A stretch of DNA of 60,104 nt from Deltaproteobacteria bacterium (GTDB lineage: Bacteria > Myxococcota > XYA12-FULL-58-9 > JABJBS01): contig JABJBS010000334.1 in assembly GCA_018668695.1 (NCBI GenBank), forward strand, positions 1-60,104. Reading direction: 5' to 3'. Each line of letters begins with the position of its first letter. Position 1 is the stretch's first letter. Shown one piece after another: positions 3,260 through 43,391 of the stretch. The notes beneath the pieces were generated by a model, which had not been told where the DNA came from, made no database searches, and saw only the letters and a program-made list of their open reading frames with translations. The position numbers and the translations under genes are program-made.

Positions 3260-3778
3260 ATGGCTATAAGAGCTTCAAGGGATGCGCGTGCCGAGAAGCA
3301 GCAGGAGTCGACAGTCACGTCCGGGGGGACATCTGGACTGCGAGGCCGTGCTAAGCCGAAAACGATTTCACGTCGTGAAATGCAGCGGAACCAAAAGAGA
3401 CGTGAAAAAGCCGGCGATTTGCTCGAGATTATACCGTACGACAGACCAGAGAAACGGTCTGAATGTGCAACAGGACCACGACCTTGTTTGTTTGTGGCTT
3501 GTAAGTACCATCTCTATCTTGATGTTAACCCGGAGACGGGCTCCATTAAGATGAATTTTCCAGACTTGGAACCGTGGGAACTCGAAGAGACCTGCGCCCT
3601 TGATATCGCCGAACGTGGTGGTGTTACTCTGGAAGAAGTTGGTGCCATTTTGAATCTGACGCGCGAACGTGTGCGACAGGTTGAGGTTTCCGGTCTAACA
3701 AAGATGCATGAAGTAAGTGAAGAGCACGAACTTGATGCCTTTATGGGCTGGGAAGTTGGACAAGACCGAACAGGTTGA
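3260..3778 (+). CDS. Sigma-region-4-like DNA-binding protein
   Basis: This 172-residue protein is preceded by a strong GGAGGGG site at 3251-3257, which decides the ATG at 3260. The N-terminal 60 residues are basic and probably disordered. The centre has a conserved Cys-containing segment ([19 protein letters not shown]) followed by the acidic stretch [19 protein letters not shown]. The C-terminal part has a helix-turn-helix of the sigma-70 region 4 type, [20 protein letters not shown], near residues 120-150. There is no region 2, so it cannot act as a normal sigma factor. Similar small sigma-like proteins recur in deltaproteobacteria as regulators of unknown target. The four Cys around residues 75-115 could bind metal, which is inference. 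Confidence 0.65.
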
Positions 3779-3837
3779 TAAATGGCCACGGTGTCCGCAA
3801 GGCTCTGTGGCGTTCTTTTGACGGCGGCTGTTTAGGC

Positions 3838-5028
3838 ATGAAGTCATTATCAATTTATCTGCTGGTTCTTCTACCAGTTAGTGTTCTGATTCCGTGGGCC
3901 CCTTTGGTGGGCCCAATCAACACCAGTGATATTTTACCGATCTTGGGTGGCGCTGGAGCCTGCTGGCTCTTAATGTCGAACGCCGATACGCATTCGGTTA
4001 CTCCATTTCCTTGGTGGGTGCTTCTGGCGCTCGGCGTCGGAATGCTTGGGTCCCATTGCATTGGGCATTGGGAAACATTTGGAGTCGGCGTAAGCGGACG
4101 AACGCTTGGCCGCATGCTGCTTTACGCGGCGGTCGGTCTAGGAATAACCTCCTTTTTTGATGATAGAGAAATCTCGTTGCTTGGACGAGTCTTTACGATT
4201 GTTGTTCTCACTGAAGCCAGCATTGGCGTCGTGGCAGTACTCATCGGTGTACCCGGTCCTTTAGGGTTGGGTGTTGTTGATTATCCTCCAGGTCATTTCC
4301 CGGCAGACGGTTGGGCGCGTGCTCAGGGCACTTTTGGCGGAGTATTGCCGGCTGGTGAAGAGTTCCTCAATCGGGCCAACTTCTATTCAGCGTATCTTGT
4401 CATCGGTCTTTTCGTTGTGGCCGACCGCTTCGCGAAACGGCCGCGTTTCTTATTACCCGCTGTTTCCTTGATTCTTTTAGGAATATTGGCCTCCGGCTCT
4501 AGGATGAGCTTGCTGGCGGCGTTAGTCGGGTTAGCTGTTTTCATGTCTTTCAGCGGAAAAATCAAAACCCTGCTGGCTGGTGTGGTCATCTCTTTAGCCA
4601 CCGTACTGGCTTACGAGCCCATTAGAGCACGATTCCTTAATCTAACCACGGATAGGCTAGATCTCTGGGGGCATGCCTTACGCGTGACAGCAAGCGCACC
4701 TTGGTTAGGTGTCGGCGACGGTCACTATCTCACTGCTGCCCGGGAGCTAAGCCTACAAACAAGTGCCGTGATTCATAGCCCACACCATTCCATCCTTTAT
4801 GCAGCCGCGTCTTATGGTTTACTCACCGCCCTGGGCCTCATCGCACTCTATGTTTCAATGCTTTGGTATGCCTTCAAACAGCGTAAAGAACAGCCCGCAT
4901 TATTGGCCATGGCCGTAGCATTCATCCTCCATGATATGACCAATAATCTCTTTTTTATACCGGAAGTGGCGCTAAGCTTTTGGCTTGCCTGGGCGTATTT
5001 CACTAAAAAGGATGCCGCAAGCGCATGA
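3838..5028 (+). CDS. O-antigen ligase / polymerase (Wzy/WaaL) family membrane protein
   Basis: This polytopic protein of about 396 residues starts at the ATG in MKSLSIYLLVLLPVSV; the frame is open 21 codons further upstream. It has roughly ten to eleven membrane segments and a large periplasmic loop in the second half with the family signature WGHALRVTASAPWLGVGDGH, then HSPHHSILYAAASYG. That loop (G-x-G-x-G plus HSPHN-like residues) is typical of WaaL/Wzy-type proteins, which join lipid-linked glycan units or transfer them to an acceptor. It starts the polysaccharide locus and its stop overlaps the next gene (ATGA). Sequence cannot decide between polymerase and ligase. A second member of the family lies at 8206. 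Confidence 0.75.
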   Translation: MKSLSIYLLVLLPVSVLIPWAPLVGPINTSDILPILGGAGACWLLMSNADTHSVTPFPWWVLLALGVGMLGSHCIGHWETFGVGVSGRTLGRMLLYAAVGLGITSFFDDREISLLGRVFTIVVLTEASIGVVAVLIGVPGPLGLGVVDYPPGHFPADGWARAQGTFGGVLPAGEEFLNRANFYSAYLVIGLFVVADRFAKRPRFLLPAVSLILLGILASGSRMSLLAALVGLAVFMSFSGKIKTLLAGVVISLATVLAYEPIRARFLNLTTDRLDLWGHALRVTASAPWLGVGDGHYLTAARELSLQTSAVIHSPHHSILYAAASYGLLTALGLIALYVSMLWYAFKQRKEQPALLAMAVAFILHDMTNNLFFIPEVALSFWLAWAYFTKKDAASA

Positions 5029-5867: not shown

Positions 5868-6962
5868 ATGCACGTAGCTCATATCATGGCATCTGGTGAA
5901 CCGGGAGGTGGGGCAACTTACCTTGTCGGACTTTTGCCTGAACTTGCGAAGCTAGAGGTCCAGTCATGCCTAATTACGCAGCCTAATTCAGTATTGGCCG
6001 AGTTGGCGCGCACCCAAGAATTTAAGGTTTACGGCCTAGACCTAATGACCAGTCGGCTAGACATCACAATAGCCAAGCAGCTCGCTTCGACGATTGCTGA
6101 AATTGGACCAACCCTTGTTCATGCGCACGGCACCCGTGCCGCATTCTATTGCGCATTGGCATCCATTCATAAATATTGCCCCGTGGTTTACACCGCCCAC
6201 GGAATCTCATTTCGGGATACTCAACCCTTGCCGAAAAATCTTCTAATGAAAGCCGTTGAATGGTTTTCTATGAGAAAGCTTGCCGCTCTTGCTTCAGTCT
6301 CGGAACAAGACCTGGAAGCCTTATCGCAATTGCACTCGAATTCGGCGACACCTAAGGCCTATATCCCGAATGCCGTCAGCGGCGAGTTGTTCAAGCCGGG
6401 CAACAAGGCCGAAGCGCGTAAAAGAATTAACCTGCCAGAGAAAGCGTTTATTGTAGGGACGGTAAGCCGGCTGGTCGAACAAAAGGCTGTGCACCTGTTA
6501 TTGGATGCCGCTACGGAAGTGGAAGGCGCCCATATTGTAATTGTCGGCGACGGACCGCTCGAGGCTCAGCTGCGAAAACTGGCTCATTCGACGGGTATTC
6601 AGTGCCACTTCCTTGGAAGCCGTAACGATGTCCCCGAAATTCTACCTTCGTTCGACGTATTCGTATTGAGTAGTTTATGGGAAGGGGAGCCTCTGAGTCT
6701 CCTTGAATCCATGGCGTGTGGCATACCTGTCATTGCGTCCGACACACCCGGCGCATGCTCGATACTTAAAAACGAAAACTCAGGCCTTTTGTTTAGCCGT
6801 GGCTCAAAACAAGATCTGGCTGCCTTACTCTTACGCCTAAGAGACAATCCTGAGCTAAGAAGAGTGCTTTCCCTTGGAGCCATTGCAGCCGCCTCTGAGC
6901 GAACTTTAACGAGGACGGCGCAACAAACGGTCGCAGTTTATCAAGAAGGGCTAGTGCCCTGA
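5868..6962 (+). CDS. Family 4 glycosyltransferase
   Basis: This 364-residue GT-B enzyme has an N-terminal acceptor domain (MHVAHIMASGEPGGGATYLV, then HAHGTRAAFYC) and a C-terminal nucleotide-sugar domain. The latter has VGTVSRLVEQKAVHLLL, IVGDGPLEAQL and the E-x7-E motif EGEPLSLLE near residue 272. The layout is that of retaining GT4 enzymes that build O-antigen or capsule repeats. It is 39 bases from the preceding gene, and its TGA overlaps the next ATG by one base. The donor sugar is unknown. Confidence 0.8.
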   Translation: MHVAHIMASGEPGGGATYLVGLLPELAKLEVQSCLITQPNSVLAELARTQEFKVYGLDLMTSRLDITIAKQLASTIAEIGPTLVHAHGTRAAFYCALASIHKYCPVVYTAHGISFRDTQPLPKNLLMKAVEWFSMRKLAALASVSEQDLEALSQLHSNSATPKAYIPNAVSGELFKPGNKAEARKRINLPEKAFIVGTVSRLVEQKAVHLLLDAATEVEGAHIVIVGDGPLEAQLRKLAHSTGIQCHFLGSRNDVPEILPSFDVFVLSSLWEGEPLSLLESMACGIPVIASDTPGACSILKNENSGLLFSRGSKQDLAALLLRLRDNPELRRVLSLGAIAAASERTLTRTAQQTVAVYQEGLVP

Positions 6963-8209
6963 TGCAAGTTGGCGGTCTAAGTATTGCGTTCGCAGCCATC
7001 GGCGCCTGGGCGGCCGAGCAGTGGTTCCCAGAAAACATAGGAATTGGAGGCAGTCTCATTGCCTTGATTCTCGCAATGGTTCTCATACCCACCGCATTTC
7101 GCAAAATGAGTATTTTCATTGCCTTGGCAGTCGCAGCGACGCTCTTGCCTGTTTTGCTTGTCCTAACAGCCTCTTTAGATTGGGACCAGAGCACGCTCAT
7201 CAGCTCATACGCCCACATGATTTGGGTTATGGGAGTAAGCGGCGGGAGCTGGGGATCCGCAATGCGTGGCGGGCGCTGGCCCGTCGCCGCGGTCTTGGTC
7301 ATCGCCGCGCTGATTGTGGCTCCAATGACACGCCAGCAGGACGAAGCCGATGGCGAAAGTTCATTGATGCAGCTTGAAGCGGCTATGGTCCGTGGCAATA
7401 ACGATTTACTTCAGCGGTGGGTCGAGCTTGCATTGAATCAAAACGTAGGCCCTCAGAGACTCAGACATTTTTGCAAACAATCGCGGCATGACTTTAGGCG
7501 CGGCACGAGTGACTTAGATACGCGAACTCAAACGGTATGCCGGGCACTGCTCCATAAGTTCCCAGAACAGGGTGGTCGCGAGTTATTACGTGCTGAGTCA
7601 TCTAAGCAGGTGAGGTTGGCGGCAGATCTTTTCGCCGAGGCGGGCCTCTGGGACGAAGCTTCAATGGCGACGCACCGAGCAGTCAAACTCGGCGCGGCCC
7701 ATTCAGCTCTAAATCTATGGCGCTGGAAACGCGTGAAGGGACGTCAAGCCAAAGGAGTCGAAGACTGGGCTGGCTGGAATGCCGAAACAACATTCGTGGG
7801 CCCAGCTGGAGCAGAACGAAGCGCGGTTCGCGTTAGTGGTGCCAGTGGTGGACTCAAGCCCATGGTTCTAAGATCGGGGCAAAGAGCCATCATGTCCGTG
7901 AATCGCTACGGCGACTCGTTTACCGTGGATTTGCCAAAACCGCCTTCCAAAAATGTTCAAAGCATTAGTCTCATGGGCCAAGCTCGAAATGGTTTTGCGT
8001 TCGAGTTCTTAGATGCAGGCAATACGTGGCACCGATATCACTGCGACGGGCCTTCTAAGTCTGCAGGTATTTATGGGTCCTCATTTTGCAACGAGCAGCT
8101 TGGCACAGCCGTGGTTGAGATCGATGAATCGATCCGTCAACCGCTGCGTCGGATACGGGTCCGAGGGAATTTTATCCTTCAGGGTATTCAAGCGAGCGCG
8201 CGCCAATGA
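6962..8209 (+). CDS. Unrecognised membrane protein with helical and beta-rich domains
   Basis: This 415-residue protein is coupled on both sides (TGATG before, ATGA after). I do not recognise a family. Residues 1-120 have about four membrane segments. Residues 130-260 are helical with TPR-like spacing (LLQRWVELALNQNV, LAADLFAEAGLWDEASMAT). Residues about 265-415 look beta-rich and soluble, with segments such as SAVRVSGASGG, SFTVDLPKP and FAFEFLDAGNTWHRYHCDG, and two Cys about 15 apart. A carbohydrate-binding jelly-roll in the periplasm would fit, but this is inference. Its place between a glycosyltransferase and an O-antigen ligase family gene suggests a role in glycan assembly or export. Confidence 0.5.
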   Translation: MQVGGLSIAFAAIGAWAAEQWFPENIGIGGSLIALILAMVLIPTAFRKMSIFIALAVAATLLPVLLVLTASLDWDQSTLISSYAHMIWVMGVSGGSWGSAMRGGRWPVAAVLVIAALIVAPMTRQQDEADGESSLMQLEAAMVRGNNDLLQRWVELALNQNVGPQRLRHFCKQSRHDFRRGTSDLDTRTQTVCRALLHKFPEQGGRELLRAESSKQVRLAADLFAEAGLWDEASMATHRAVKLGAAHSALNLWRWKRVKGRQAKGVEDWAGWNAETTFVGPAGAERSAVRVSGASGGLKPMVLRSGQRAIMSVNRYGDSFTVDLPKPPSKNVQSISLMGQARNGFAFEFLDAGNTWHRYHCDGPSKSAGIYGSSFCNEQLGTAVVEIDESIRQPLRRIRVRGNFILQGIQASARQ

Positions 8210-9453
8210 CATTCCAGCAACGCGAACAAGGGCATATTCTCGCTTTGATGCTACTGGCATTCGCCATACCCCTTGGAGAGGGAATCGCGCTGCTTGGCAT
8301 GGGGCTGGTCTTTCTTTTTTGTTTCCTGCGACGCTACAGCATTGACTGGACCGAGCTGCGCCGAGGCTTGGCGGGCGTATGGTTTTATGGTTGGCTTGCT
8401 TGGTTTGTTGTCGGGATCTTGATGATTTCGATATCGGGGCTAGGTGTTTTAAAGTCGTCTGAGATTTTTCGCCACACGCCCATTCTCGCAGCTCCCGCAG
8501 TTTTCCTATCGGTTCGCTCGTTGCCACCGCGTTCGTTAGCCAGGGTTCAACAGCTTCTGATGATTATGCTTTGCGCCGGGGCTCTGCTTGGGATTTACCA
8601 ATGGTACAGCAGCAGTCACGATCTTGCATTTATGGTGCGAGCGGACTCCTCTATCGCAAGTCAGGCACGTGTACCGGGCGCGTATGATTCCATGGCGGCT
8701 GCTGGATTTTACTTTCATCGATTAAAGATGGCCCATGTGTTGGTGCTTGCCATCGGCCTGGTCGTCCCATTTGGCTTAACGAAGGGCAGACAGGCAGGAT
8801 GGGCGTGGTTTGCCGCGGGGCTTTTCACGGTTTGCCTGGCCGGCACTTTCGCGAAAGCCTCTTGGGGTGCTTGCTTCGTAGGCACCGTTGCTGCCGGTTA
8901 CTGCGTGTTTAAGCAAGTCAGAAAACCCGTTTTATTCGCTTCGTTGGTGGGTGCCGGGTCAGTCTTGTATTTGCAGAGCAATGGACAGCTTGTGTTGCCA
9001 AGTTCCATGGGTAGCTCAACAGGCATCCGGTCTATGATCTGGGGCCAAGCACTTCATGTGATCCAAGATTATCCGGGTGGCGTTGGTCTTGGGAATTACT
9101 CAAAAGTAGTCGCAAGCTATTACGACCAGGTCATGCCAGCGTTTCATATACGAACCTATCCCCACAATCTTCTACTTGCATGGTGGGCCGAGTGTGGCGC
9201 AGGCGGCATGCTCATACTGGTTTCATCATGGGTCATAATCTTCGTTAAAGCCTTTCAACGTGCGTGCGACACAAATCTTGGATCGGCAAATCGGAGCATC
9301 TATGCATCGTTGGTCTTCTATCTTGCCTCGTTTTGGATTATCGGCCTCACGCACGATGTTTTTTACCACCAATCTGTCGCCTTGATGTTTTTCAGTGGCG
9401 TTGGCTGGCTTCTGGGTCAATTACCCAGTGATGAATTGAGCAACAGACTATGA
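8206..9453 (+). CDS. Second O-antigen ligase / polymerase family membrane protein
   Basis: This 415-residue polytopic protein starts in an ATGA overlap. It has about ten hydrophobic segments. The central periplasmic part includes MAAAGFYFHRLKMAHVLVLA and a cytosolic-side FAKASWGACF stretch. The large second-half loop has SSTGIRSMIWGQALHV, DYPGGVGLGNYSKV and TYPHNLLLAWWAECG, the hallmark of the Wzy_C/O-antigen ligase family. One of this protein and the one at 3838 is probably the polymerase and the other the ligase. Which is which cannot be read from sequence. Coupling to the NlpC/P60 protein that follows suggests coordinated assembly at the envelope. Confidence 0.78.
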   Translation: MTFQQREQGHILALMLLAFAIPLGEGIALLGMGLVFLFCFLRRYSIDWTELRRGLAGVWFYGWLAWFVVGILMISISGLGVLKSSEIFRHTPILAAPAVFLSVRSLPPRSLARVQQLLMIMLCAGALLGIYQWYSSSHDLAFMVRADSSIASQARVPGAYDSMAAAGFYFHRLKMAHVLVLAIGLVVPFGLTKGRQAGWAWFAAGLFTVCLAGTFAKASWGACFVGTVAAGYCVFKQVRKPVLFASLVGAGSVLYLQSNGQLVLPSSMGSSTGIRSMIWGQALHVIQDYPGGVGLGNYSKVVASYYDQVMPAFHIRTYPHNLLLAWWAECGAGGMLILVSSWVIIFVKAFQRACDTNLGSANRSIYASLVFYLASFWIIGLTHDVFYHQSVALMFFSGVGWLLGQLPSDELSNRL

Positions 9454-11627
9454 ATGGTATTGTCATAACCCTGGCCATCCAGGCAGCGCTGGCTTGGAGC
9501 CTCGACCATCCTATCGAGAATCTTGATCAGCTTAAATGCGTCACACAAACCCAGCAAGTTGACGATCCTCTTTACGAACTCAAGCTGAATCAAGGCACGC
9601 GTCACTGGGTTGGTCTCTTGTGGCGGCCTGACACCCTTCGGCTCACCCCGCGCTCAAGGGCGCCATCCGCAGACACTTTGCTCGATACGGCCCGGGGCTT
9701 TCTCGGAACACCCTACGTTTGGGGCGGAGTGGGCCGGCGTGGCCTCGACTGTAGCGGGTTTGTTAACGCCGTCTATGCTCGCCACGGGTACGATTTACCC
9801 AGAGTTTCGCGGGATCAATTTCGAGTCGGTGTAAAAACTCCACGTAGCCGCTTAGCGCCTGGTGACTTGCTCTTCTTCGTGACCCAACCTGGGACTAAAA
9901 AGATTACGCATGTTGGCATGTATGTGGGCGATAACGAGTTTATCCACGCCGCACGGGGTAAAGGGAAAGTCACCTACGACCGTTTAACATCAAGGTACTA
10001 CAGCGCACGGTTTGCGGGAGCACGACGTTTTCTTAGCTTAAAGCCCGGGCGCTTCAGCGATAAAATCGGGCGCTACCGAAAAGGCAGGCTCTACGGTTCT
10101 GCTAAAGCAGGCGGAGTGGACCCCGTTTTGCTTGAACTCGGGCTTGCTGACCCAAGCATGGGCGAACCGGATGTTCTCGACTCAATAGGCCTAAGCGAGT
10201 CGGGCGATACCCTCAGGGAACATGCCGGTGAACAGAAGCCGATGCAGCTTTCAAGTGGTTTCATTAAGGGCACCATCACAGGCGTCGGGCCATCGCTGGT
10301 GGCAACCGAGGAAACCTCGATAGGTGTGCGGCTCGGCGGCGGACACATGGCCGGCAGTTATGCTTTTGTCATTGCGCCAGAATTCACCTACTTTGGTCAC
10401 GACAACGCCTTGGCCCTCAATATAGGGGTGCCGCTCCATATTCCTGTGGCAAATTATGAGGGCACGTTTTCCGAGGTCTTCAAGGCCGGCTGGGACAAGC
10501 CTCGAGACTACACAAAACTCATTCGAGGCATAAAGTTTGGCCAAAAAGAATCAAATCTTTACGTCGAGCTAAGTCGAACGTTATCGGGCAGCCTCGGTCA
10601 CGGCCAGCTGATGAGGTTCTTTACCCCTAATGTTGGGTCTGCTTTTTTACCTGAGTACACGTTGGAGGCAGATGCCTTATCGTTGGCCTTCGATGGGTAT
10701 CTCGGCTTTGGCGGCTTTGAACTATTTATAGATGACCTCATCGTGCCGAGGGTGTTTGGCGGCTTGTTCTTCTTGAGGCCGTCGGTTCTGGCCGGCACAG
10801 ACAACGCTCTGCTCAAAAGACTGTCCCTGGCGCTTACTTATGCTGGAGATGTTGGGGCGCCTATGGCCGACACAGCAGTTGCTCAGGAGTCCTTCGGTAG
10901 TGTCCACGGAATCGGCTTTGATGCAGAATTCAAATTCTACAAGAGCGGGTCTTTGGACATGAAGGCTTACGCTGACGTATCCGGACTGCTTTATACGGGA
11001 GGATCGAGCGCAGGCGGAGCTCTCGGATTACTTGTTCGCTCAAACATTGAAAGTACATCCACCCATATCCTGCGTGGGCGCCTTGAGTTTCGAATCAGTG
11101 AACCATCTTTTATCCCATCCTATTTTGACACGACTTACAAACTTGGTCGATTGGCTGCACCCTCAGACACCATGCAGGACACTGCTCCTGAGACCAAGCT
11201 GGATTTACTCAACGAGCTTGAGTCGGACCCATCCAGGTGGGGGTTCTACACGGAGCTAACATACCACCTGTTTAGGCGGTTCAGCGTTATGGCCTCCTAC
11301 GAGGACTCCGGGACATTTGGAGATGCCTTGCAAACCTACTCCGGCCGAAACTTCATGGTGACCGCCCGAGTGCAGGATGTTTACTGGCCCAAAACCACCA
11401 AGACGATGGACTTCTATCTCGCGTACCACCTTCGCAATATAGACAGCGCTAAGGGCCTCTTTACGCTCGATAAGCGCAATGAATTCATCTTTGCCGCTGC
11501 ATCTATGCGGGTCAGCAGGTTCGTCGAGGTTTCGGCTACTGTTCGCAAAGGCGTCAATGAGTCCGACCCGTATTCCCGTGGTGCTCTCGATGCGATGCTT
11601 GGCTTAGCGTTTAGGTACGAACTCTAA
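9450..11627 (+). CDS. NlpC/P60 peptidase fused to a large beta-rich, barrel-like domain
   Basis: This 725-residue protein has a probable signal peptide (MNGIVITLAIQAALA, cleavage before Trp16). Residues about 75-195 form an NlpC/P60 domain with Cys101 (GLDCSGF), His154 (ITHVGMYVG) and His166 (EFIHAARG), the expected Cys-His-His triad, plus the PYVWGG lead-in. Residues about 255-725 are beta-rich with alternating aromatic strands (LYVELSRTLSG, FGGFELFIDDLIVPRVFGGL) and end in FRYEL, an aromatic-containing tail like those of outer-membrane barrels. NlpC/P60 enzymes usually cleave peptidoglycan stem peptides. Its place inside an exopolysaccharide operon suggests an envelope passage for polymer combined with cell-wall remodelling, which is inference. 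Confidence 0.7.
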   Translation: MNGIVITLAIQAALAWSLDHPIENLDQLKCVTQTQQVDDPLYELKLNQGTRHWVGLLWRPDTLRLTPRSRAPSADTLLDTARGFLGTPYVWGGVGRRGLDCSGFVNAVYARHGYDLPRVSRDQFRVGVKTPRSRLAPGDLLFFVTQPGTKKITHVGMYVGDNEFIHAARGKGKVTYDRLTSRYYSARFAGARRFLSLKPGRFSDKIGRYRKGRLYGSAKAGGVDPVLLELGLADPSMGEPDVLDSIGLSESGDTLREHAGEQKPMQLSSGFIKGTITGVGPSLVATEETSIGVRLGGGHMAGSYAFVIAPEFTYFGHDNALALNIGVPLHIPVANYEGTFSEVFKAGWDKPRDYTKLIRGIKFGQKESNLYVELSRTLSGSLGHGQLMRFFTPNVGSAFLPEYTLEADALSLAFDGYLGFGGFELFIDDLIVPRVFGGLFFLRPSVLAGTDNALLKRLSLALTYAGDVGAPMADTAVAQESFGSVHGIGFDAEFKFYKSGSLDMKAYADVSGLLYTGGSSAGGALGLLVRSNIESTSTHILRGRLEFRISEPSFIPSYFDTTYKLGRLAAPSDTMQDTAPETKLDLLNELESDPSRWGFYTELTYHLFRRFSVMASYEDSGTFGDALQTYSGRNFMVTARVQDVYWPKTTKTMDFYLAYHLRNIDSAKGLFTLDKRNEFIFAAASMRVSRFVEVSATVRKGVNESDPYSRGALDAMLGLAFRYEL

Positions 11628-12745
11628 TGAGGGTTGCGCTGGTCCACGATTGGCTGGTCGCCCATAGAGGCGGTGAAGCAGTGTTGCTGGAGCTTGCCCG
11701 ACTCTTTCCTGAGGCACCTATTTACACACTGGTCCTGGACAGGCCCAAGATCCATCTCGAATTGCAACAAAGAGATATTCGGACGAGCTACATCCAGCGC
11801 TTGCCGGGATCCCCGGTCAGCTTCCGGCGCTATCTACCAATCTTTCCTCATGCCATTGAACAATTCGACCTCACGTCTTTTGACCTTGTGGTTTCAACCA
11901 GCCATTGCGTCGCCAAGGGCATCATCACCGGTAAGGCTCAGCACTTAAGTTATGTGCATACGCCTATGCGCTACATCTGGGACCAGCGAAAACAATACCA
12001 ACCCAAGGGCCTCCTTGGCACCATCATGAGACCGGCTTTTGAAGCTACGGCTGCGGCTCTTAGGGTTTGGGATAGGGCCAGCGCCGAGCGTCCCGACCGT
12101 ATTATCGCAAACTCAAACTTCGTAGCGGAGAGAATCAGGCAGTCATGGGGCAGGGAAGCGGGTACAGTTTACCCTCCCGTGGACACGAAGTTCTTCACAC
12201 CCGGCGCCCAAGCGCGAAAGGACTATCTCGCCGTCGTGGGGGCGCAAGTTGGCTATAAAAACACAGCGCTCGCGGTTGAACTGGCCACCCGAGAAGGCTT
12301 GGATTTAAAAGTTGTTGGCACTGGCCCCGCGGTGAATGCTCTCAAGAAGCACGCAGGGCCAACCGTTTCTTTCGTCGGTCACGTTAGCAATGAGGATCTT
12401 CGGGAAGTTTACCGTGAAGCGAAAGGTCTTCTCTTTTGCGGAGTAGAGGATTTCGGCATTGTACCCGCTGAGGCGATCTCATGCGGTTGCCCCGTAGTCG
12501 CCTTTGCCGCCGGCGGTGCATTGGAGACCGTTGGAGGTAATGTGAGCCAACCCGTGGGCGTCCTATTCTCCGAGCCTACAATAATTTCGCTCGGGCAAGC
12601 CGTGGCCAAGCTCGACACCCACTGGAGTCAGGGGGTTTTTGATTCGGCCCTAATGCAGGGGTACGCGAAGAGATTTTCCCGAGAGGCTTTCTGCAGCTCT
12701 ATAAAGCAGGAAATCCAAACATTACTGAGCACTTCCGTTCACTAG
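11627..12745 (+). CDS. Family 4 glycosyltransferase, WbaZ-like
   Basis: This 372-residue GT-B protein begins in a TAATG overlap with the NlpC/P60 gene. The N-terminal half has MRVALVHDWLVAHRGGEAVL and HLSYVHTPMRYIWDQRKQY, blocks seen in WbaZ-type mannosyltransferases. The C-terminal donor domain has VGAQVGYKNTALAVELA and the E-x7-E motif EDFGIVPAE near residue 283, followed by SCGCPVVAF. It is the last gene in the tightly coupled run that begins at 5868. Family assignment is good; mannose as substrate is only suggested by likeness. Confidence 0.78.
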   Translation: MRVALVHDWLVAHRGGEAVLLELARLFPEAPIYTLVLDRPKIHLELQQRDIRTSYIQRLPGSPVSFRRYLPIFPHAIEQFDLTSFDLVVSTSHCVAKGIITGKAQHLSYVHTPMRYIWDQRKQYQPKGLLGTIMRPAFEATAAALRVWDRASAERPDRIIANSNFVAERIRQSWGREAGTVYPPVDTKFFTPGAQARKDYLAVVGAQVGYKNTALAVELATREGLDLKVVGTGPAVNALKKHAGPTVSFVGHVSNEDLREVYREAKGLLFCGVEDFGIVPAEAISCGCPVVAFAAGGALETVGGNVSQPVGVLFSEPTIISLGQAVAKLDTHWSQGVFDSALMQGYAKRFSREAFCSSIKQEIQTLLSTSVH

Positions 12746-12985: not shown

Positions 12986-14419
12986 ATGCTGAAACGATAC
13001 CCACGAACTTTCGAGCTATTCCAGGTGATTAACGATGCCACGGCGGTGGCAGGCGCTTTTGTATTGGCGTACTCACTCCGTTTCTCACTTCCAGACCTGA
13101 TTCCCTATGAGACCATTTCAGATCCTCGCGAAACCATCTGGGTCGGCTGCTTCTCGGTTAGCACCTGGGTTCTTTTCGCGTATCTTGGCCAATTCTACGT
13201 TAGTCATCGTGCAAAGAGCCTAGCGTCTGAGATTTTTGAGATATTCAAAACCTCGCTTTACTCGTTTTTCGCGGTCGTCACGCTAACGTATTTTATACGA
13301 GATGTTCGGTATTCACGATTAGTTATAAGCTTTTGGCTTATGTTTTCGTTTATAGGCGTGTCCGCCAGCCGAACGGCTTTACGGCTTGTCCTAAGACGGA
13401 TCCGCCGAAAAGGTTACAATCTGCGCCACGTCATCATTGTTGGGACTGGCACACTTGCAACCGATGCTATCCGGCTGATCCAGGGACAGCCTCAGCTGGG
13501 CGTTCGCGTAAAGGGGCTGGTTCGAGAAAAGGCCGGTCCACGCCGACGCGCATTGGACGAGATTACCCAATTAACCGCAACCACCTTAGAAGGCGTACCG
13601 GTACTCGGAGACCTTACGGAACTCTCAACGATGGTTGAAGAAACTGGAGCGGACCAGGTTCTGATAGCGCTGCCCATCGAGCAGCTCGGTGTAATGCCCG
13701 AGATCATGGCCTCTATGACTCAGCACACTGTTGATGTTCGCCTGATTCCAGACATTTACCAACACGCGACCCTTTGTGGAAGTATCGAGGATTTTGGTGG
13801 CGTACCGGTTATTAATCTTCAAGAGACGCCGCAGGTGGGCTGGAATAAAGTACTCAAGCGGCTCTTCGACTTCTCGCTGACTGCAGCCGGCGTCGCACTT
13901 ATATTGCCAATATTTGGCTTCATCGCATCGCTCGTAAAGCTCACATCTCGTGGACCAGTCTTCTATTCGCAAGAGCGCGTCGGGTTCGACGGTCGCCGTT
14001 TCCAGATGTACAAATTTCGAACCATGCGCCAAGACGCTGAGAGTGACGGCGCAACCATGGCGGTGAGCGGAGATCCACGGTGTACAAGTGTCGGCCGGAT
14101 ACTCCGAAAAACGTCCCTCGACGAGCTGCCGCAGCTCTGGAATGTGCTTCGAGGCGAGATGAGCTTGGTTGGCCCTCGACCCGAAAGGCCGTGCTTTGTC
14201 GAGGATTTAAAGCGAGAAATTCCGAGGTACGCCTTGCGACATAAGATGAAAGCAGGCATGACCGGCTGGGCTCAGGTGCACGGGATGCGAGGCAACACCA
14301 GTATCCACAAAAGGGTTGAACTGGATCTCTATTATATTGAGAACTGGTCGGTCCGGTTGGATATCGTTATCTTGTTAAGAACAATTTTTGGTGGCTTCCT
14401 TTCTCCCAATGCGTACTGA
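12986..14419 (+). CDS. Undecaprenyl-phosphate sugar-1-phosphate transferase (WcaJ/EpsZ type)
   Basis: This 477-residue polyisoprenyl-phosphate hexose-1-phosphate transferase has four to five N-terminal membrane helices (residues 10-135). A Rossmann-like CoA-binding domain follows (HVIIVGTGTLATDAIRLI, about 150-270). The C-terminal catalytic domain begins KRLFDFSLTAAG. It carries ERVGFDGRRFQMYKFRTM, SLDELPQLWNVLRGEMSLVG and GPRPERP. The ending GMTGWAQVHGMRG is that of the glucose-1-phosphate (WcaJ) subgroup. It would start the polysaccharide by loading a sugar-phosphate on the lipid carrier at the inner membrane. The start lacks a good ribosome site. A second paralogue lies at 16612. Confidence 0.85.
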   Translation: MLKRYPRTFELFQVINDATAVAGAFVLAYSLRFSLPDLIPYETISDPRETIWVGCFSVSTWVLFAYLGQFYVSHRAKSLASEIFEIFKTSLYSFFAVVTLTYFIRDVRYSRLVISFWLMFSFIGVSASRTALRLVLRRIRRKGYNLRHVIIVGTGTLATDAIRLIQGQPQLGVRVKGLVREKAGPRRRALDEITQLTATTLEGVPVLGDLTELSTMVEETGADQVLIALPIEQLGVMPEIMASMTQHTVDVRLIPDIYQHATLCGSIEDFGGVPVINLQETPQVGWNKVLKRLFDFSLTAAGVALILPIFGFIASLVKLTSRGPVFYSQERVGFDGRRFQMYKFRTMRQDAESDGATMAVSGDPRCTSVGRILRKTSLDELPQLWNVLRGEMSLVGPRPERPCFVEDLKREIPRYALRHKMKAGMTGWAQVHGMRGNTSIHKRVELDLYYIENWSVRLDIVILLRTIFGGFLSPNAY

Positions 14420-16611: not shown

Positions 16612-18054
16612 GTGAGTCGCCGTCATTCATCATCTTGGCCAGCCGTTGTACTGGTGCTTATCGATCTGATGGGTTTCTTTGCGGCTATCCATCTAGCGAT
16701 CTGGCTCCGATATTCCATATTTGTTGGAGCATTTATCAAGCAAGGCCCACCACCTTGGCCTGAAATATTGGACGTTCTACCATTCGTAGCCGTCTCCTGG
16801 ATTGCTGTAAACGCGAGTGTTGGCAGTTATCGTCAGGGCCTAGGAGCCCTCGATGAGTTCAGCAGCCTTTTACGAGCCACCATTCTGACCTTTCTCGGCG
16901 TATTAAGCGCACACTTCTTTTACAGGGAAGCCAGTTATTCAAGGGCCATGATTGGCTTCTTGATACCACTTTTACTTTTCGTCTCACTGGCATCTCGTCT
17001 CGTCTTGCGAATGCTCCGTCGCCGTGCACTCACAAAATTCGGAGGCACCCTAAGAGTACTTGTGGTTGGAGAAGACCCTACTGCCCAAGGCTTGATTCAA
17101 GGCATGATACGCCTTGGAGACCAGTATAAAGTGATAGGATCACTTAGCGTAGGGCCCAGAAAAACCCAGGGCATACTTCCTGTTCTCGGCGAATTCGAGG
17201 ATTTAGAAGAAGTTTGCCAACGTGAAAACATCGACACACTTGTTATCGCCGAACGCGAACTAGGTGAAGACAAGGTTCTGAGTTCCATAGAGGTTTGCCT
17301 GCGAAACCAAGTGGCATGGAACATGGTCCCAAGAGTTCACGAGCTTTTGGTCGACCGAGCCCGAGTAGACCTCGTTGACGGTATCCCACTTGTGGGAATG
17401 CGCCGAACCAATATCGTTGGTTTCAACTGGATGCTTAAGCGCGCGTTGGACATCGTCGCATCATCTGTCCTGCTTCTTGTTGGTTCGCCGCTCATGATAG
17501 GCGTGGCCATCGCCATTAGGATCAGCTCGAAAGGACCAATTTTCTACGTTCAAGAACGGGTTGGGTACCGCGGCCAACTTTTTCCATTCATAAAGTTTCG
17601 TTCGATGCATCTAAATAACGATAATGCCATCCATCGAGACTACACGAGACAATGGATCACAGAAAACAAGGCACACACCGAGGGCGGGGAAGCGAAAGAA
17701 GCTGTTCATAAAATCATCGACGACCCTCGAATCTTCAAGGTCGGGAAATTCATTCGCCGATACTCAGTCGACGAACTTCCGCAGCTATTCAATGTTTTTC
17801 GCGGAGACATGAGCTTAATCGGACCACGTCCAGCATTGGCTTATGAAGTTGAAGTATACAGCGAATGGCACCGACGGCGCTTTGAGGCTCCGCCAGGAAT
17901 TACCGGCCTTTGGCAGGTCTCTGGACGAAACCGGCTCTCGTTTGAGCAGATGGTCGAGCTGGATATTGAGTATCTGGAAAACTGGACACTGGGCACAGAC
18001 CTAAGAATTCTTATCCGTACCGTTAGCGTCGTTCTGTTTGAAAAAGCCTATTGA
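16612..18054 (+). CDS. Polyprenyl-phosphate sugar-1-phosphate transferase, second copy (WbaP-like)
   Basis: This 480-residue protein starts at GTG, eight bases after the oxidoreductase stop. Four to five membrane segments occupy residues 10-135 and a Rossmann-like domain follows (LRVLVVGEDPTAQGLIQGM). The C-terminal transferase domain begins KRALDIVASSVLLL. It has QERVGYRGQLFPFIKFRSM, SVDELPQLFNVFRGDMSLIG and GPRPALAYEVE, then ITGLWQVSGRNRLSF. The last block differs from the copy at 12986 and resembles WbaP/galactose- or amino-sugar-phosphate transferases. Two initiating enzymes imply either two polymers or one alternative starter sugar. Its stop overlaps the convergent glycosyltransferase by seven bases. 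Confidence 0.85.
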   Translation: MSRRHSSSWPAVVLVLIDLMGFFAAIHLAIWLRYSIFVGAFIKQGPPPWPEILDVLPFVAVSWIAVNASVGSYRQGLGALDEFSSLLRATILTFLGVLSAHFFYREASYSRAMIGFLIPLLLFVSLASRLVLRMLRRRALTKFGGTLRVLVVGEDPTAQGLIQGMIRLGDQYKVIGSLSVGPRKTQGILPVLGEFEDLEEVCQRENIDTLVIAERELGEDKVLSSIEVCLRNQVAWNMVPRVHELLVDRARVDLVDGIPLVGMRRTNIVGFNWMLKRALDIVASSVLLLVGSPLMIGVAIAIRISSKGPIFYVQERVGYRGQLFPFIKFRSMHLNNDNAIHRDYTRQWITENKAHTEGGEAKEAVHKIIDDPRIFKVGKFIRRYSVDELPQLFNVFRGDMSLIGPRPALAYEVEVYSEWHRRRFEAPPGITGLWQVSGRNRLSFEQMVELDIEYLENWTLGTDLRILIRTVSVVLFEKAY

Positions 18055-37380: not shown

Positions 37381-39261
37381 CTAGGGCGCAGCCTCAGCTT
37401 CGATGGGCTTGGAACCTGGATCAGCAGGGGCGTCATCAGCCGCAGGGGCGGCCTCAGGACTGCCATCACCCTCGGGAGGGGCCTGGCCTTGCTCCTGGTT
37501 CTCTTCGCCATCACCAGCCGCCTCATCAGAAGGGGTGTCACCATCCTCATTTACCGCGTCAGGGTCGCCTGCGTTTTCTGCGTCATCGGAATCAGAATCT
37601 TCTTCGTCATCATCATAGTCATCGTCGTCTTCATCGTCATCCTCTCCTGCCTGTAACATGAGGTCTTGAAGCGACATGATTTCCCCGACCGGCTCCTTCT
37701 TTGTACCATAGAGCTCCTGAAGGAGTTCTCCCGGTCCTAACGAAATCGCAGGAATATAGGTGACCATAATAATACCGATCAACATCAGGCCGGTAAAAGG
37801 TACGACCGAACGAACAACCTCCCCAATAGGCTTTTTGAAAAGCGTACTGGCCACAAAAAGGTTCAAGCCAAGCGGCGGCGTCAGATAACCGATTTCAAGG
37901 TTAACGATAAACACGATGCCGAGGTGAACAGGGTCAATCTCAATTCCTGGAGCCGCTGCCATCGGCACAATCAGTGGAGCGATAATTAATATCGCACTGA
38001 TAATATCCATAAAGCAGCCCACCAAAAGCAGGAAGATATTTAGAACGACCAGGAACTCGATGCGAGTGAGCTCCATGTCGCGAATCAACGCAACTGCTTG
38101 CTCAGGAATAGACTCACTAACGAGATAATCGTTAAACACGAATGCAATGACCATGATAACGACCAGGGAGCCCATCATGACAGTGGAGTCTGCGATCAGC
38201 TCCGGCATGTCGCGCCACTCCATCTCGTTGTAGATGTAAATCGCAACAACAAGAGAGTAGACCACGGCAACAGCCGCCGCCTCGGTCGGTGTGAACAAGC
38301 CCGAGTAAATGCCGCCCAAAATGATAACCGGAAGCATCAAGGCCCAGAAGCCCTCAAGCAACTGCTTGCGGGCAACAATGCACGCCATCACAGCAAGAAC
38401 GACCGGCCCTGTAACATGGCCCCATTTATTCCCCATGCCGACAATGATTTGCCCAACGACAAACGGTGAGGCGATGATCGCAAAACCAGTGAGTAACCGT
38501 TTAAGGTCTGCATTGAAATTCTTGCTGTTTCGAAGCGAGGTGCCTACGACATAGCTACCAAGTAAGCCACCAATCAAAAGACCTGGGCCAATACCGGCTA
38601 AAAATAAGTCACCAACATCCACAACTTGCTGCCCGCTGACAACAATGGCGTAAATAATCATCGGGATAGAAGGGGGGATGACAATCCCAAGTGAGCCGGC
38701 CGAGGTCAGCAAGCCAATCGAGGTTTTTTCATCGTATCCTGCCGCCGTTAACGCAGGATACATCATTCCGCCAATGGCAATAACTGTCACTGGAGATGAG
38801 CCGCTGATTGCTGCGAAAAGCACACAACCACCGATGGCCGCGATGGCTAAACCGCCCGGCATCCACCATGTAAGCGCTCGCGCGAAATCAATGAGGCGCT
38901 TTGCAATGCCACCGTGGGTCATAATTGCGCCAGATATAACAAAGAACGGGATGGCGAGTAGCTCGTTTTTGTCCGTTAACCCAAATATCTTTTCTGGAAA
39001 AATACCGAAATCGTTAACAGGCACCGAAGCCATATAATTGAAGCAGACGAGGGTAAGAACCCCGAGAACAACATAAAGTGGTTGAGCCAAAAGAAGGCTC
39101 AAAGAAATCGTCGAGAGGATCAACGAGGTTCCAAAGGAGCCGAACAGCAATGGCACCACCCCAAGGGCGGTGAGAATAATCGCGACGACTGGCTTGTGCT
39201 TGAGAAAATAGAAACTCGAAGCCGCTAGAATAATCACAACGGCGATACTAACCGTTTCCAT
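37381..39261 (-). CDS. TRAP transporter large permease DctM with acidic tail
   Basis: This 626-residue protein has about 12 to 14 membrane segments over residues 1-510. DctM signatures are NELLAIPFFVISGAIMTHGG, ISGSSPVTVIAIGG, SLGIVIPPSIPMIIYAI and TPPLGLNLFVAS. The first conserved block starts near residue 95, about 45 residues later than usual, so one or two extra N-terminal helices are present. The last 110 residues are an acidic, low-complexity tail (DDDEDDDDYDDDEEDSDSDD) followed by a Pro/Glu/Ala stretch. TRAP systems import organic acids with a Na+ gradient. No small DctQ subunit is encoded in the 93-base gap or nearby. Confidence 0.88.
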   Translation of the reverse strand: METVSIAVVIILAASSFYFLKHKPVVAIILTALGVVPLLFGSFGTSLILSTISLSLLLAQPLYVVLGVLTLVCFNYMASVPVNDFGIFPEKIFGLTDKNELLAIPFFVISGAIMTHGGIAKRLIDFARALTWWMPGGLAIAAIGGCVLFAAISGSSPVTVIAIGGMMYPALTAAGYDEKTSIGLLTSAGSLGIVIPPSIPMIIYAIVVSGQQVVDVGDLFLAGIGPGLLIGGLLGSYVVGTSLRNSKNFNADLKRLLTGFAIIASPFVVGQIIVGMGNKWGHVTGPVVLAVMACIVARKQLLEGFWALMLPVIILGGIYSGLFTPTEAAAVAVVYSLVVAIYIYNEMEWRDMPELIADSTVMMGSLVVIMVIAFVFNDYLVSESIPEQAVALIRDMELTRIEFLVVLNIFLLLVGCFMDIISAILIIAPLIVPMAAAPGIEIDPVHLGIVFIVNLEIGYLTPPLGLNLFVASTLFKKPIGEVVRSVVPFTGLMLIGIIMVTYIPAISLGPGELLQELYGTKKEPVGEIMSLQDLMLQAGEDDDEDDDDYDDDEEDSDSDDAENAGDPDAVNEDGDTPSDEAAGDGEENQEQGQAPPEGDGSPEAAPAADDAPADPGSKPIEAEAAP

Positions 39262-39354
39262 TATTCCGTTACCCCCTACCGCGCGAGGCGGTTGTTAACC
39301 CTAAGGTTGAACGTTGACTGGCCACTCCCCATAAGCGCCAGTCACCGAATTATA

Positions 39355-40368
39355 TTATTTACTGCGATACTCTTTGACCGCCTTATCGATGGTCTTCAGT
39401 AGAGCTAAGCCTTCTGGGGTTGCCCGTGATTCAAATTCCTTGCGAACCGCTTTGGCTGGCTTGGAGAATGACTTACGTTCTTTATCCGTAAGTTCGTAGA
39501 CCTTGATTCCATAGTTTTTAAAGTTCTTAATTAGACCGGGCTCGAGACGCCGTACGCCTTTTCGACCCTTCTCTGTATCCTTTTGTACATTGCCCATGAG
39601 CGCCGGTTGCAGGTCGGCAGGGACTTTGTCGAAAAACTTTTTAGAGTACGCAAGAACGCCTGGCTGATACAGGTGACGACTGATCGTGTAGTACTTGATA
39701 CCTCGATACCAACCTGCCGCAAACGTGTATAACGGCGTCTGAGCAAAGCCATCCACACGACCCGTGTTCAGGGCGGGCAATACTTCCGAAACCGGCATTT
39801 CTGTAGGTGATGCTCCCATCGCCTTCCAAGTGGAAAGGTGAACAGGCGCTTCCTGAGAACGGATCTTACGGCCGGCCAAGTCAGCAGGGTGCTTCACGAA
39901 CCCATCGGTCAACCCGATATTCTGCCAGCCGTTCTCTGCCCATTGGTACAGGATGTAGCCGTATTTCTTCATGACATCGCCGATTGGCTTGTAAAGGTAG
40001 TTATCCAATACAAAGTCGGCTTCTTTAGAAGTCTTAAAGATAAACGGTAGCTCAAGAACCTGCATTTCCGGAACTTCCGTTCCGATTGATGCGGTCGATA
40101 CCCCGATAATCTCCAAGCGAGCATCCCGGCACTGACGAACCAATGATTTCTCATCGCCTTTAGCACCACCGAAGTAAACCTTCACCTTGATGCGTCCGCC
40201 TGAATCTTTACGAATGTGCTTCTTGGTACCCTTGATTTGCTGCTCCCAAGGCGTGCCTTCAGGTGCAACGGTTCCCGCACGGACTACAATCTTGTCGCTC
40301 TTCTTCGCAAACGCTTCCGCGCTGAGCGAGATGGCCAATACGGCGCAAAGAGATATTCTCCAAAGCAT
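39355..40368 (-). CDS. TRAP substrate-binding protein DctP, copy 1
   Basis: This 337-residue periplasmic protein has a signal peptide (MLWRISLCAVLAISLSAEAF). It shows the DctP pattern: VRAGTVAPEGTPWEQQIKG, KVKVYFGGAKGDEKSLV, FVDNYLY-like helices, AGRKIRSQEAPVHLSTWKA and TGRVDGFAQTPLYTF. The usual TRAP motif Arg that binds carboxylate is in the GRKIRSQ segment. It is most similar in the window to the protein at 41337-42350, showing duplication. It is preceded by a TatT-like lipoprotein gene. Confidence 0.85.
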   Translation of the reverse strand: MLWRISLCAVLAISLSAEAFAKKSDKIVVRAGTVAPEGTPWEQQIKGTKKHIRKDSGGRIKVKVYFGGAKGDEKSLVRQCRDARLEIIGVSTASIGTEVPEMQVLELPFIFKTSKEADFVLDNYLYKPIGDVMKKYGYILYQWAENGWQNIGLTDGFVKHPADLAGRKIRSQEAPVHLSTWKAMGASPTEMPVSEVLPALNTGRVDGFAQTPLYTFAAGWYRGIKYYTISRHLYQPGVLAYSKKFFDKVPADLQPALMGNVQKDTEKGRKGVRRLEPGLIKNFKNYGIKVYELTDKERKSFSKPAKAVRKEFESRATPEGLALLKTIDKAVKEYRSK

Positions 40369-40402
40369 TCATTAACTCCCTGGGTTCGATAAATAAGAAG
40401 GG

Positions 40403-41299
40403 TTAGAAGATGTCTTCGCCTTCGGCTTTAAGTCGTTTCGCTTTCTCGATTTCAAATACTTGCTCTGGCGCCACTTCTGGAATCTTGGTGGCGTCGCCAG
40501 CGATAACCTGGTCAAGCAACTCGTAGAACAAATCTTCTTCGTCTTCCTTCGTCGCCCAAAACTCCGCATACAACACCTTGGTTGCGAGATAATCAGGGGC
40601 CAGCTCAATGGACTTCAGAAAGTGCTCCTTTGCTTTGCCCATATCCCCGCCGGCAAAACCCGGTGCCTTGGCGAAGTAAACACCAAAGTAGCGATGCGGC
40701 GCACCGTAGTAATAAGTTGGGTCCAGAGCCAAGACGCGCTCCATAATCTTAAAGATACGCTCTTTGTACTTAAGCAGGGCCGCGATACCTTGTTCGTTTG
40801 CCCATTTACCTAAACATACTGAATACCAGTACATCGCAGGCTGACCTTCGATCGATATTGAACTTACAGCATTTTCCGGCTTCTCACCGGCCTTAACTCG
40901 TCCTTCGAATTCAGCAGAGGATGCCACCATCGCACGCTCTCCGAGCGTCACGCCTTTCTCCAGAGATGCCAACATGCCATCCTTATCACCCGCAAGCCGC
41001 TGGTGAAGGTCACCGTAAAACCGGTAGGCTTGGGCCAACATCGTCAGGAGTGCCATGTCCTTGGGGGATGCTGCAAGTGCTTGCTCCCATTTCTCAATCG
41101 CTAATTTCGTTTGAACGGGGTCTGCGCGCAATGCCCACGCGGCGTCCGCTTCAGCCTTGATCGCCGAGGACACATCTGAAGAGAGCTCTGCGCCTTCGGC
41201 AACCTTTGTTTCGCGGTCCCAAATGGCTTCACGACTGCCGCCGCACGCGGTGAGGGAAGTAGCTACTAATATGACGGTGAGAACTCTAAATTGAGACAT
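40403..41299 (-). CDS. TRAP transporter TatT component-like lipoprotein, copy 1
   Basis: This 298-residue lipoprotein has a clear lipobox, SLTAC, with Cys19 (MSQFRVLTVILVATSLTAC). The mature part is helical with TPR-like pairs: AIEKWEQALAASPKDMALL, AYRFYGDLHQRLAGDKDGM and MGKAKEHFLKSIELAPDYLA. YYYGAPHRYFGVYFAKAPGF matches the TatT family of TPR proteins that partner TRAP binding proteins (TPAT systems, first known in Treponema). It lies 34 bases before DctP copy 1 on the same strand. It probably delivers a hydrophobic or bulky ligand to DctP at the envelope. Confidence 0.82.
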   Translation of the reverse strand: MSQFRVLTVILVATSLTACGGSREAIWDRETKVAEGAELSSDVSSAIKAEADAAWALRADPVQTKLAIEKWEQALAASPKDMALLTMLAQAYRFYGDLHQRLAGDKDGMLASLEKGVTLGERAMVASSAEFEGRVKAGEKPENAVSSISIEGQPAMYWYSVCLGKWANEQGIAALLKYKERIFKIMERVLALDPTYYYGAPHRYFGVYFAKAPGFAGGDMGKAKEHFLKSIELAPDYLATKVLYAEFWATKEDEEDLFYELLDQVIAGDATKIPEVAPEQVFEIEKAKRLKAEGEDIF

Positions 41300-41336
41300 G
41301 ATGGTTCATTTCCTCTTCGAGTGTTAGTCGATTGTT

Positions 41337-42350
41337 TTACTTAAAAGCTTTTCTGCCTTTTTCAATGACGTCGAGTAACTGCTTCGCTTCTGGTGACGCC
41401 TTAGAACGGTATATCTTAAAAACGTCTTTCGCTTTAGTCGCAAAAGCTTTCTTTTCGGCTGGAGTTAGCTGATAAACTTTGATGCCGTAACTACGGAAGT
41501 TTTCAATAAGCTGGGGTTCCAATTTGCGAACACCTTCTCGGCCTTCCTCTGCGAGAGCCTGGGGGTCAAGATGCATGAATTTCTGGATCTCTTTGGTTTG
41601 CGCGTCGTGGAATTTCTTACTCCAGACGAGCACTCCAGGCTGGTAGAGGTGCTGAGTGAGTGTGTAGTGAGTAATGTGGGGCTGCCAGTTGGCGGCAAAT
41701 GTGTAGAGTGGAGTCTGACCAAACGCGACCACCTTCTTATCTCTGAATCCATCCGTAACTTGTTCGGTGCTTAACTCGACAGGCACCGCGCCGAGTGTTG
41801 ACCAAGTTAATGGGTGAACCTTTGATGGCTGCGCACGAATCGTAATTCCAGCTAGATCACTAGGCTTCTTAATAAACTTGTTCGCTCCAATGTTGTGCCA
41901 GCCGTTTTCGGCCCACATGTATAGAACGAGGCCGCCCTTCTCGAGTAATTTAGACACGATAGGAGTTGCATACTTATCCAGTACAAAGTCTGCCTGGGCA
42001 GAGTTCTTGAACAGAAAGGGAAGATCGAAAACCTCAAGGGCAGGCGCATACTTATTCATCGCGCTTAGAGTACCGCCGTACATTTGCAGTTCATTCGCGT
42101 GAACCTTTGCAATGCACTCGTTCTCACCGCCTTTAGCGCCTCCGAAGTAAACCTTGATTTTCAGTTCGCTGGAGGATTCCTTTCGGATAATCTTCTTAAC
42201 CTTCTTCGTGAGCTGCTCCCAGGGCGTGCCCTCGGGGGCCACGGTACAAACCTTTGCCTTCACCTTCGCTGACGCCATAGAGGGAACCATTGCGAAGCAG
42301 AGGCAAGCTGCAATCATGGTTACTCGGATTTCACATAACTGTCGGTACAT
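41337..42350 (-). CDS. TRAP substrate-binding protein DctP, copy 2
   Basis: The protein is 337 residues from the ATG in MYRQLCEIRVTMIAACLCF, preceded by a GGGTGGG-like site; a GTG four codons upstream is an alternative. The signal peptide ends near SMASA. It shares the layout of copy 1: CTVAPEGTPWEQLTKK, KIKVYFGGAKGGENECI, WAENGWHNIGANKFIKKPSD, AGITIRAQPSKVHPLTW and VAFGQTPLYTFAANW. The identical length and shared motifs show a paralogue with probably different ligand choice. It lies between two TatT-like genes. Confidence 0.84.
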   Translation of the reverse strand: MYRQLCEIRVTMIAACLCFAMVPSMASAKVKAKVCTVAPEGTPWEQLTKKVKKIIRKESSSELKIKVYFGGAKGGENECIAKVHANELQMYGGTLSAMNKYAPALEVFDLPFLFKNSAQADFVLDKYATPIVSKLLEKGGLVLYMWAENGWHNIGANKFIKKPSDLAGITIRAQPSKVHPLTWSTLGAVPVELSTEQVTDGFRDKKVVAFGQTPLYTFAANWQPHITHYTLTQHLYQPGVLVWSKKFHDAQTKEIQKFMHLDPQALAEEGREGVRKLEPQLIENFRSYGIKVYQLTPAEKKAFATKAKDVFKIYRSKASPEAKQLLDVIEKGRKAFK

Positions 42351-42377
42351 TATTTTTCCCACCCAAAGGCATACAGA

Positions 42378-43391
42378 TTAGAAGATGTCGTCAATCTCTT
42401 CGAGAAGGTTCGTCGCTTTTATTTGCTCAAAAGCCTGCTCTGGTGCTAGCCCTGGAAGAATGTCTTTATCTGCGTTGATTACGAAATCCAAAAGCCGTTT
42501 AAAGTGATCAGGGTCCTCTGTCTTGCGGGTATACATGTCCGCCATCAGGACGCTGGTCGAGAAGTAATTAGGCGCAATTTCCAACGCTTTCTCAAAATGC
42601 AGTTTTGACTTATTCATATCACCACCGGCCCATGCTGGTGCTTTCGAGTAATACGCTCCGAAGTAACGATGAGCTGCTCCGTGAAAATAATACTCGTCGA
42701 GCGTGAGAAGTCGTTGCATCAGAGCAAAAATTTGAGCTTTGTAAAAAAGCAGTGTTGGAAATGAATCTAATGCCGCATATTTTCCGAGGTTAACTGCGTA
42801 CCAGTAGATATGGCCTGCCGCTTCCATAGGTAGGTGGCTTACGCAGTCTTCAACTGGATCTTGCAACTCCAAGCACTCGTTAAATTTCGGGCTAATCGCC
42901 TTCATGCCATCCATGGCATAATCAAAACCCTTTTTGTAGGTGGCCAGCATATCGTCGCGCTTGTCATCGTAGTCTTCCTCTTGTCGCATGTGGCCATCCG
43001 TCAAAAGGTAGTACCCCCGGGATAGCCATTCGTAGGCGATCCCATCTGCAGGCTCAGCTGCAACCAGTTTCTCGAGCTCAGCCAGAGACTCTTTGAGCGA
43101 CTCTTTGTTGTCTCTCTTGCTCCAGCCAGTAGCCGCGTCACCTGGAGGCATCGGCGTTTTATCTTCCGGCTCCGCCTCAACCGCAGGGTCTGCAGCGTGT
43201 TGAACGGGTTCAACTCCCAGGTGGTCCTGGATTGCTCGAATCTGAACCTGGAGATCTGTGAGTTGCTGTTGTAGCAACTTAAGGTTTTTACCTAGGTCTT
43301 CATCCGAGTCTGCGAATGCTTGACTGGCAGGCATTCCTATCGCGACCGCAATGGTCATTACGATAACGTGTCTCATGTTACGACGTTTCAT
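42378..43391 (-). CDS. TRAP transporter TatT component-like protein, copy 2
   Basis: The protein is 337 residues from the ATG in MKRRNMRHVIVMTIAVAIGM; an ATG five codons later is also possible. The signal peptide ends near QAFA and has no lipobox Cys, unlike copy 1. A short coiled coil follows (LGKNLKLLQQQLTDLQVQI, about 33-60), then an acidic Pro-rich linker. The TatT-like helical domain comes last, with YYFHGAAHRYFGAYYSKAP and MNKSKLHFEKALEIAPNYF. It is the first gene of the minus-strand block, 27 bases ahead of DctP copy 2. Soluble placement and a coiled coil suggest it may self-assemble; this is inference. Confidence 0.8.
   Translation of the reverse strand: MKRRNMRHVIVMTIAVAIGMPASQAFADSDEDLGKNLKLLQQQLTDLQVQIRAIQDHLGVEPVQHAADPAVEAEPEDKTPMPPGDAATGWSKRDNKESLKESLAELEKLVAAEPADGIAYEWLSRGYYLLTDGHMRQEEDYDDKRDDMLATYKKGFDYAMDGMKAISPKFNECLELQDPVEDCVSHLPMEAAGHIYWYAVNLGKYAALDSFPTLLFYKAQIFALMQRLLTLDEYYFHGAAHRYFGAYYSKAPAWAGGDMNKSKLHFEKALEIAPNYFSTSVLMADMYTRKTEDPDHFKRLLDFVINADKDILPGLAPEQAFEQIKATNLLEEIDDIF

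Follow-up and report, generated by a model that had tools for sequence, protein, structure and literature searches.

The gene between an O-antigen ligase family gene and a glycosyltransferase gene in the window, i.e. the whole analyzed stretch of 60,104 nucleotides (contig C334; draft genome of 5.87 Mb, completeness 98.6%), encodes an NlpC/P60 peptidase fused to a C-terminal domain that is very probably an outer-membrane barrel. This architecture is conserved across genomes and apparently undescribed; no account of an NlpC/P60-barrel fusion turned up in the open-licence papers covered. An enzyme that remodels the wall from a membrane anchor is a better reading than a polymer exporter, because the fusion itself recurs in related bacteria while its setting among polysaccharide genes is peculiar to one genome. 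We assign a probability of roughly 60% to the reading that it is an outer-membrane-anchored murein endopeptidase that resembles MepS in function, with an integral barrel as its tether.

Domain architecture of the fusion protein

Residues 86-193 match the complete profile of PF00877 (NLPC_P60; E 1.1e-28, 99.7 bits vs. a cut-off of 23, profile positions 1-105 of 105), and Cys101, His154 and His166 are invariant in an alignment of the eight fused homologues described below, which bears out the intact Cys-His-His triad noticed in the sequence-only reading. The spacing of these residues resembles that in Spr. The best PDB sequence matches of the domain are peptidoglycan hydrolases, namely the putative cell wall hydrolase 7cfl (7e-28), Spr/MepS from E. 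coli (2e-18) and LytE, and the NCBIfam model for MepS is matched below its cut-off (81.6 vs. 186 bits). NlpC/P60 enzymes of this type cleave peptidoglycan stem peptides and, judging from its sequence, the peptidase of the fusion protein is apparently catalytically competent. The probable signal peptide at the N-terminus coincides with the second-highest window in a hydropathy scan (residues 4-22); its n-region is devoid of Lys and Arg, and the homologues start with similar short hydrophobic stretches. The linker that follows the peptidase differs in length and sequence among the homologues.

Table 1. Positions of the fusion gene, its parts, its neighbours and related loci (window coordinates unless a locus is given)
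Feature	Position	Strand	Basis
NlpC/P60-barrel fusion gene, 725 aa	9450..11627	+	ORF, Pfam domain, homologues
N-terminal hydrophobic segment, ~residues 1-18, probable signal peptide	9450..9503	+	hydropathy
NlpC/P60 (C40) domain, residues 86-193; Cys101, His154, His166	9705..10028	+	Pfam, alignment
Linker, ~residues 195-263, ~70 aa, low model confidence	10032..10238	+	alignment, model
C-terminal beta-barrel-like domain, residues 264-725, ~20-21 predicted strands	10239..11624	+	models, homologues
O-antigen ligase family (Wzy_C) gene, upstream neighbour	8206..9453	+	Pfam
GT4 glycosyltransferase gene, downstream neighbour	11627..12745	+	Pfam
ftsE-ftsX-envC/fusion-gene locus of G002	L030:7137-12908 (G002:C241)	one strand	Pfam and PDB matches
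Three stand-alone barrel-domain paralogues, own genome	L035:8416-10500, L036:4104-5627, L037:9114-10367	n/a	homologue search

Even with the threshold relaxed to E 10, Pfam yields nothing for residues 264-725, which are nonetheless conserved in sequence among the homologues, with SLGHG and IPSYFDT motifs and an FIKG motif at the start of the domain that is common to stand-alone relatives. A PDB sequence search with this domain alone returned nothing useful. AlphaFold2 models built from five sequences, a number that limits them to low-to-medium confidence (mean pLDDT 50.6 and pTM 0.46 for the full protein, 58.2 and 0.55 for the domain alone), contain about 21 beta strands in the C-terminal domain, the central ones with pLDDT 70-80. 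The Foldseek matches of this region in the PDB are outer-membrane barrels, albeit with low TM-scores, and include MOMP, CdiB, porins, maltoporin, Occ porins, OprC, AlgE and PelB. The contrast in hydrophobicity between the inside and outside faces of the strands amounts to 2.90 vs. 1.55 +/- 0.25 in within-strand shuffles, not one of 2000 reaching 2.90; this supports a barrel but does not prove it, because soluble beta proteins may also have amphipathic strands. All 19-residue windows of the domain stay at or below a mean hydropathy of 1.51, i.e. there is no strong transmembrane helix. Of the earlier proposal that some 470 beta-rich residues end like an outer-membrane barrel, for which a structure prediction of residues 255-725 had been suggested, the beta-rich stretch (about 460 residues, modelled from residue 264) and the likeness to outer-membrane barrels thus stand, while the barrel itself falls short of proof at these pLDDT values and TM-scores.

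The C-terminal domain also occurs without NlpC in many Myxococcota, where it makes up a widespread stand-alone family that has no Pfam entry and is represented by three paralogues in the window genome (Table 1). NCBIfam model NF047543 (ImpL63 of Leptospira) is matched by the window domain at E 3.4e-9 (35.9 bits vs. a cut-off of 1000 bits) and by the stand-alone Myxococcota relatives at up to E 2.5e-42, all of them far under the equivalog cut-off, pointing at distant homology. In Leptospira, ImpL63 has been employed as a marker of the inner membrane (PMC2698987, PMC2780356), a use that fits poorly with a barrel fold of the outer-membrane type for the C-terminal family. The stand-alone proteins share the SLGHG and YFDT motifs and, together with maltoporin and Occ porins among the structural matches, they could speak for a substrate-specific porin or an uptake channel in which muropeptides are trimmed by the NlpC/P60 domain for recycling or scavenging. 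We consider this unlikely, as no specific porin family in Pfam matches the domain by sequence and no conserved transport or recycling genes were found beside fused or stand-alone barrel genes; the neighbours of the stand-alone genes have no common theme.

Distribution of the fusion and its relation to polysaccharide genes

A profile of the fused protein recovers the full fusion in eight of 195 Myxococcota genomes with 931 to 685 bits; below this, scores fall to about 180 and belong to stand-alone barrels or stand-alone NlpC proteins. Apart from the window genome, the eight comprise G002, G005, G006 and G007 from the same order and G008, G011 and G029 from other families. Whole-protein identities of fused homologues in same-order genomes are 48%, 41% and 37%. 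An assembly chimera, which we considered, is rejected because fused homologues with up to 48% identity across the whole protein occur in other genomes. A scan of genome contigs with a close alignment as query found only four loci, all from Myxococcota/Deltaproteobacteria metagenome-assembled genomes. In quick trees, the fused NlpC domains cluster together and so do the fused barrels (two label changes vs. about seven after shuffling), and the fused genes may be of single origin as far as these trees go, with G002 as the uncertain member, since its barrel sits on a long branch. G001 has a stand-alone NlpC protein that lies near the fused NlpC domain of G002, with no FtsEX-EnvC genes adjoining it.

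In the window, the start of the fusion gene overlaps the Wzy_C gene by 4 nt (ATGA at 9450-9453) and its stop overlaps the GT4 gene by 1 nt (TAATG at 11625-11629). Both overlaps can be read directly from the sequence and agree with the translational coupling to both flanking genes that had been noted before. Likewise, the earlier observation that the locus is devoid of recognizable Wza-type export genes holds: no Wza or Wzz gene was seen among the polysaccharide genes of the window, the only Poly_export gene of the genome resides elsewhere (contig C139), and PF02706 (Wzz) has no match in the genome. The operon contains two Wzy_C-family genes (3775-5028 and 8206-9453) and two polyprenyl glycosylphosphotransferase genes (12986-14419 and 16612-18054). 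It also encodes a 415-residue protein (6962-8209, plus strand) with several hydrophobic segments, a soluble C-terminal part and no family match; at the same position, the G001 operon carries a gene for 551 residues without BLAST match to that protein. Elsewhere on the contig, the minus strand carries a TRAP transporter cluster (37381-43469) in which the DctP and T-component genes are duplicated. A very long open reading frame on the plus strand (48846-60104, at least 3753 residues) runs to the contig end; it has a lipoprotein-like start (LTSGC), is rich in Cys, contains about 15.7 copies of a 288-bp repeat (55257-59779) and has no confident Pfam match.

The tight overlap with Wzy_C-type and GT4 genes, the lack of a Wza gene nearby, with only one in the genome, and the presence of the alginate porin AlgE and of PelB among the many barrel matches speak for the proposal that the polysaccharide made by the adjacent operon crosses the outer membrane through the barrel while the peptidase opens the wall locally. 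We regard such an exporter as improbable. AlgE and PelB match no better than porins, MOMP, OprC and CdiB, Pfam finds no polysaccharide-exporter family domain of the Wza/OPX or AlgE type outside NlpC/P60, and the barrel domain is without a sequence tie or a specific structural tie to known exporters. Furthermore, unlike AlgE and Wza-type exporters the fusion lacks a conserved linkage to polysaccharide genes: no polysaccharide biosynthesis or export locus was found around any of the seven other fused genes, and BLAST of the window operon proteins against their surroundings found none. The contig of G029 measures only 5.9 kb and therefore says little about its neighbourhood. Pfam matches identify biotin carboxylase/carboxyltransferase and cytochrome c552 as neighbours in G007, a putative aminopeptidase and a Na+/H+ antiporter in G006, S49 peptidase, VTT and FHA proteins in G005 with a GlgC-like nucleotidyltransferase close by, zinc alcohol dehydrogenase and alpha-amylase in G008, and alanine racemase among others in G011. 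By our own reading, the GlgC-like nucleotidyltransferase and the alpha-amylase are of the storage-glucan type and do not indicate export loci.

Operons without the fusion gene are a stronger test than the neighbourhoods of the other fused genes. A collinear operon is present in four same-order relatives (G001, G004, G006 and G007) and in none of them contains the fusion gene, even though G006 and G007 carry it elsewhere in the genome. The Wzy_C-family and GT4 genes overlap directly in G001 and G007 and are about 60-70 bases apart in G004. Downstream, these three genomes have WcaJ, DegT and Gfo/Idh genes in the same order as the window, with two extra open reading frames between GT4 and WcaJ in G007, and G006 likewise keeps GT2, GT4, GT4, WcaJ and DegT. 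In G002, an opposite-strand protein, which we take to be sulfatase-like, sits between the Wzy_C-family and GT4 genes. Since the flanking genes are adjacent in relatives, these gene orders are most simply explained if, in the window lineage, the fusion gene arrived between genes that had been neighbours ancestrally, i.e. if its position reflects a lineage-specific insertion; co-expression with the window operon may still have some local meaning. Export of polymer by a barrel with its own hydrolase, as the sequence-only reading had put forward, is thus unsupported because the distribution of the fusion is unlinked to polysaccharide loci, a pattern that reading had itself named as contrary evidence.

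A probable wall enzyme with a proposed outer-membrane anchor

One neighbourhood would fit a function in the cell wall. In G002, from the same order, ftsE, ftsX, an envC-like gene, the fusion gene and lemA follow each other on one strand, with a TPM gene also downstream; ftsE was identified by its best PDB matches to FtsE, the M23 EnvC-like gene by matches to EnvC and ftsX by Pfam. In other bacteria, FtsEX acts with NlpC/P60 or EnvC hydrolase partners (PMC6705760, PMC6705773), and as these partners include NlpC/P60 hydrolases, the context in G002 fits a role in cell separation, albeit as a single case among the eight genomes. It is reminiscent of FtsEX-RipC and FtsEX-CwlO, whose hydrolases, however, lack a barrel and come from monoderm or mycolate bacteria. 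MepS/Spr, the murein DD-endopeptidase lipoprotein of E. coli, shares the NlpC/P60 domain with its Cys-His-His residues and is comparable in that the fusion protein, too, would be anchored in the outer membrane and face the wall, but MepS comprises about 190 residues and uses a lipid anchor in place of a barrel-like anchor of about 460 residues.

We infer the following arrangement, which covers the topology and closure of the barrel, localization, periplasmic orientation, enzyme activity and physiological role. The hydrophobic N-terminus would direct the protein into the periplasm, and the C-terminal 460 or so residues would form a large, roughly 20-stranded barrel embedded in the outer membrane. 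Held on the periplasmic side of this membrane, the NlpC/P60 domain would reach the peptidoglycan by way of the flexible linker (about 70 residues) and hydrolyse bonds in the stem peptides, much as lipid-anchored MepS/Spr does. The role would then lie in envelope remodelling, whether during growth, in cell separation or by clearing the wall locally beneath the barrel, and not specifically in polysaccharide export. Against a murein endopeptidase of this kind stand the restriction of the FtsEX-EnvC context to one genome, the low-to-medium confidence of the models, the use of ImpL63 as an inner-membrane marker and the uncharged n-region. Several Myxococcota are predators, and an autotransporter-like barrel presenting the peptidase outside the cell against other bacteria would agree with the order of passenger and barrel, but this is very unlikely given the lack of an autotransporter Pfam match, a barrel far larger than the 12-strand autotransporter translocator and the variable linker.

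The case illustrates that a striking operon position may be a lineage-specific insertion rather than a functional clue. Tentatively, Myxococcota might possess a class of murein hydrolases whose integral outer-membrane barrel, as the anchor, would position or regulate the cutting of the wall, e.g. together with FtsEX-EnvC in cell separation, and which would couple remodelling of outer membrane and peptidoglycan in one polypeptide. If the murein endopeptidase reading is true, a peptidase that carries its own barrel would connect wall and outer membrane physically and directly, which bears on how Gram-negative bacteria coordinate peptidoglycan cutting with the outer membrane.
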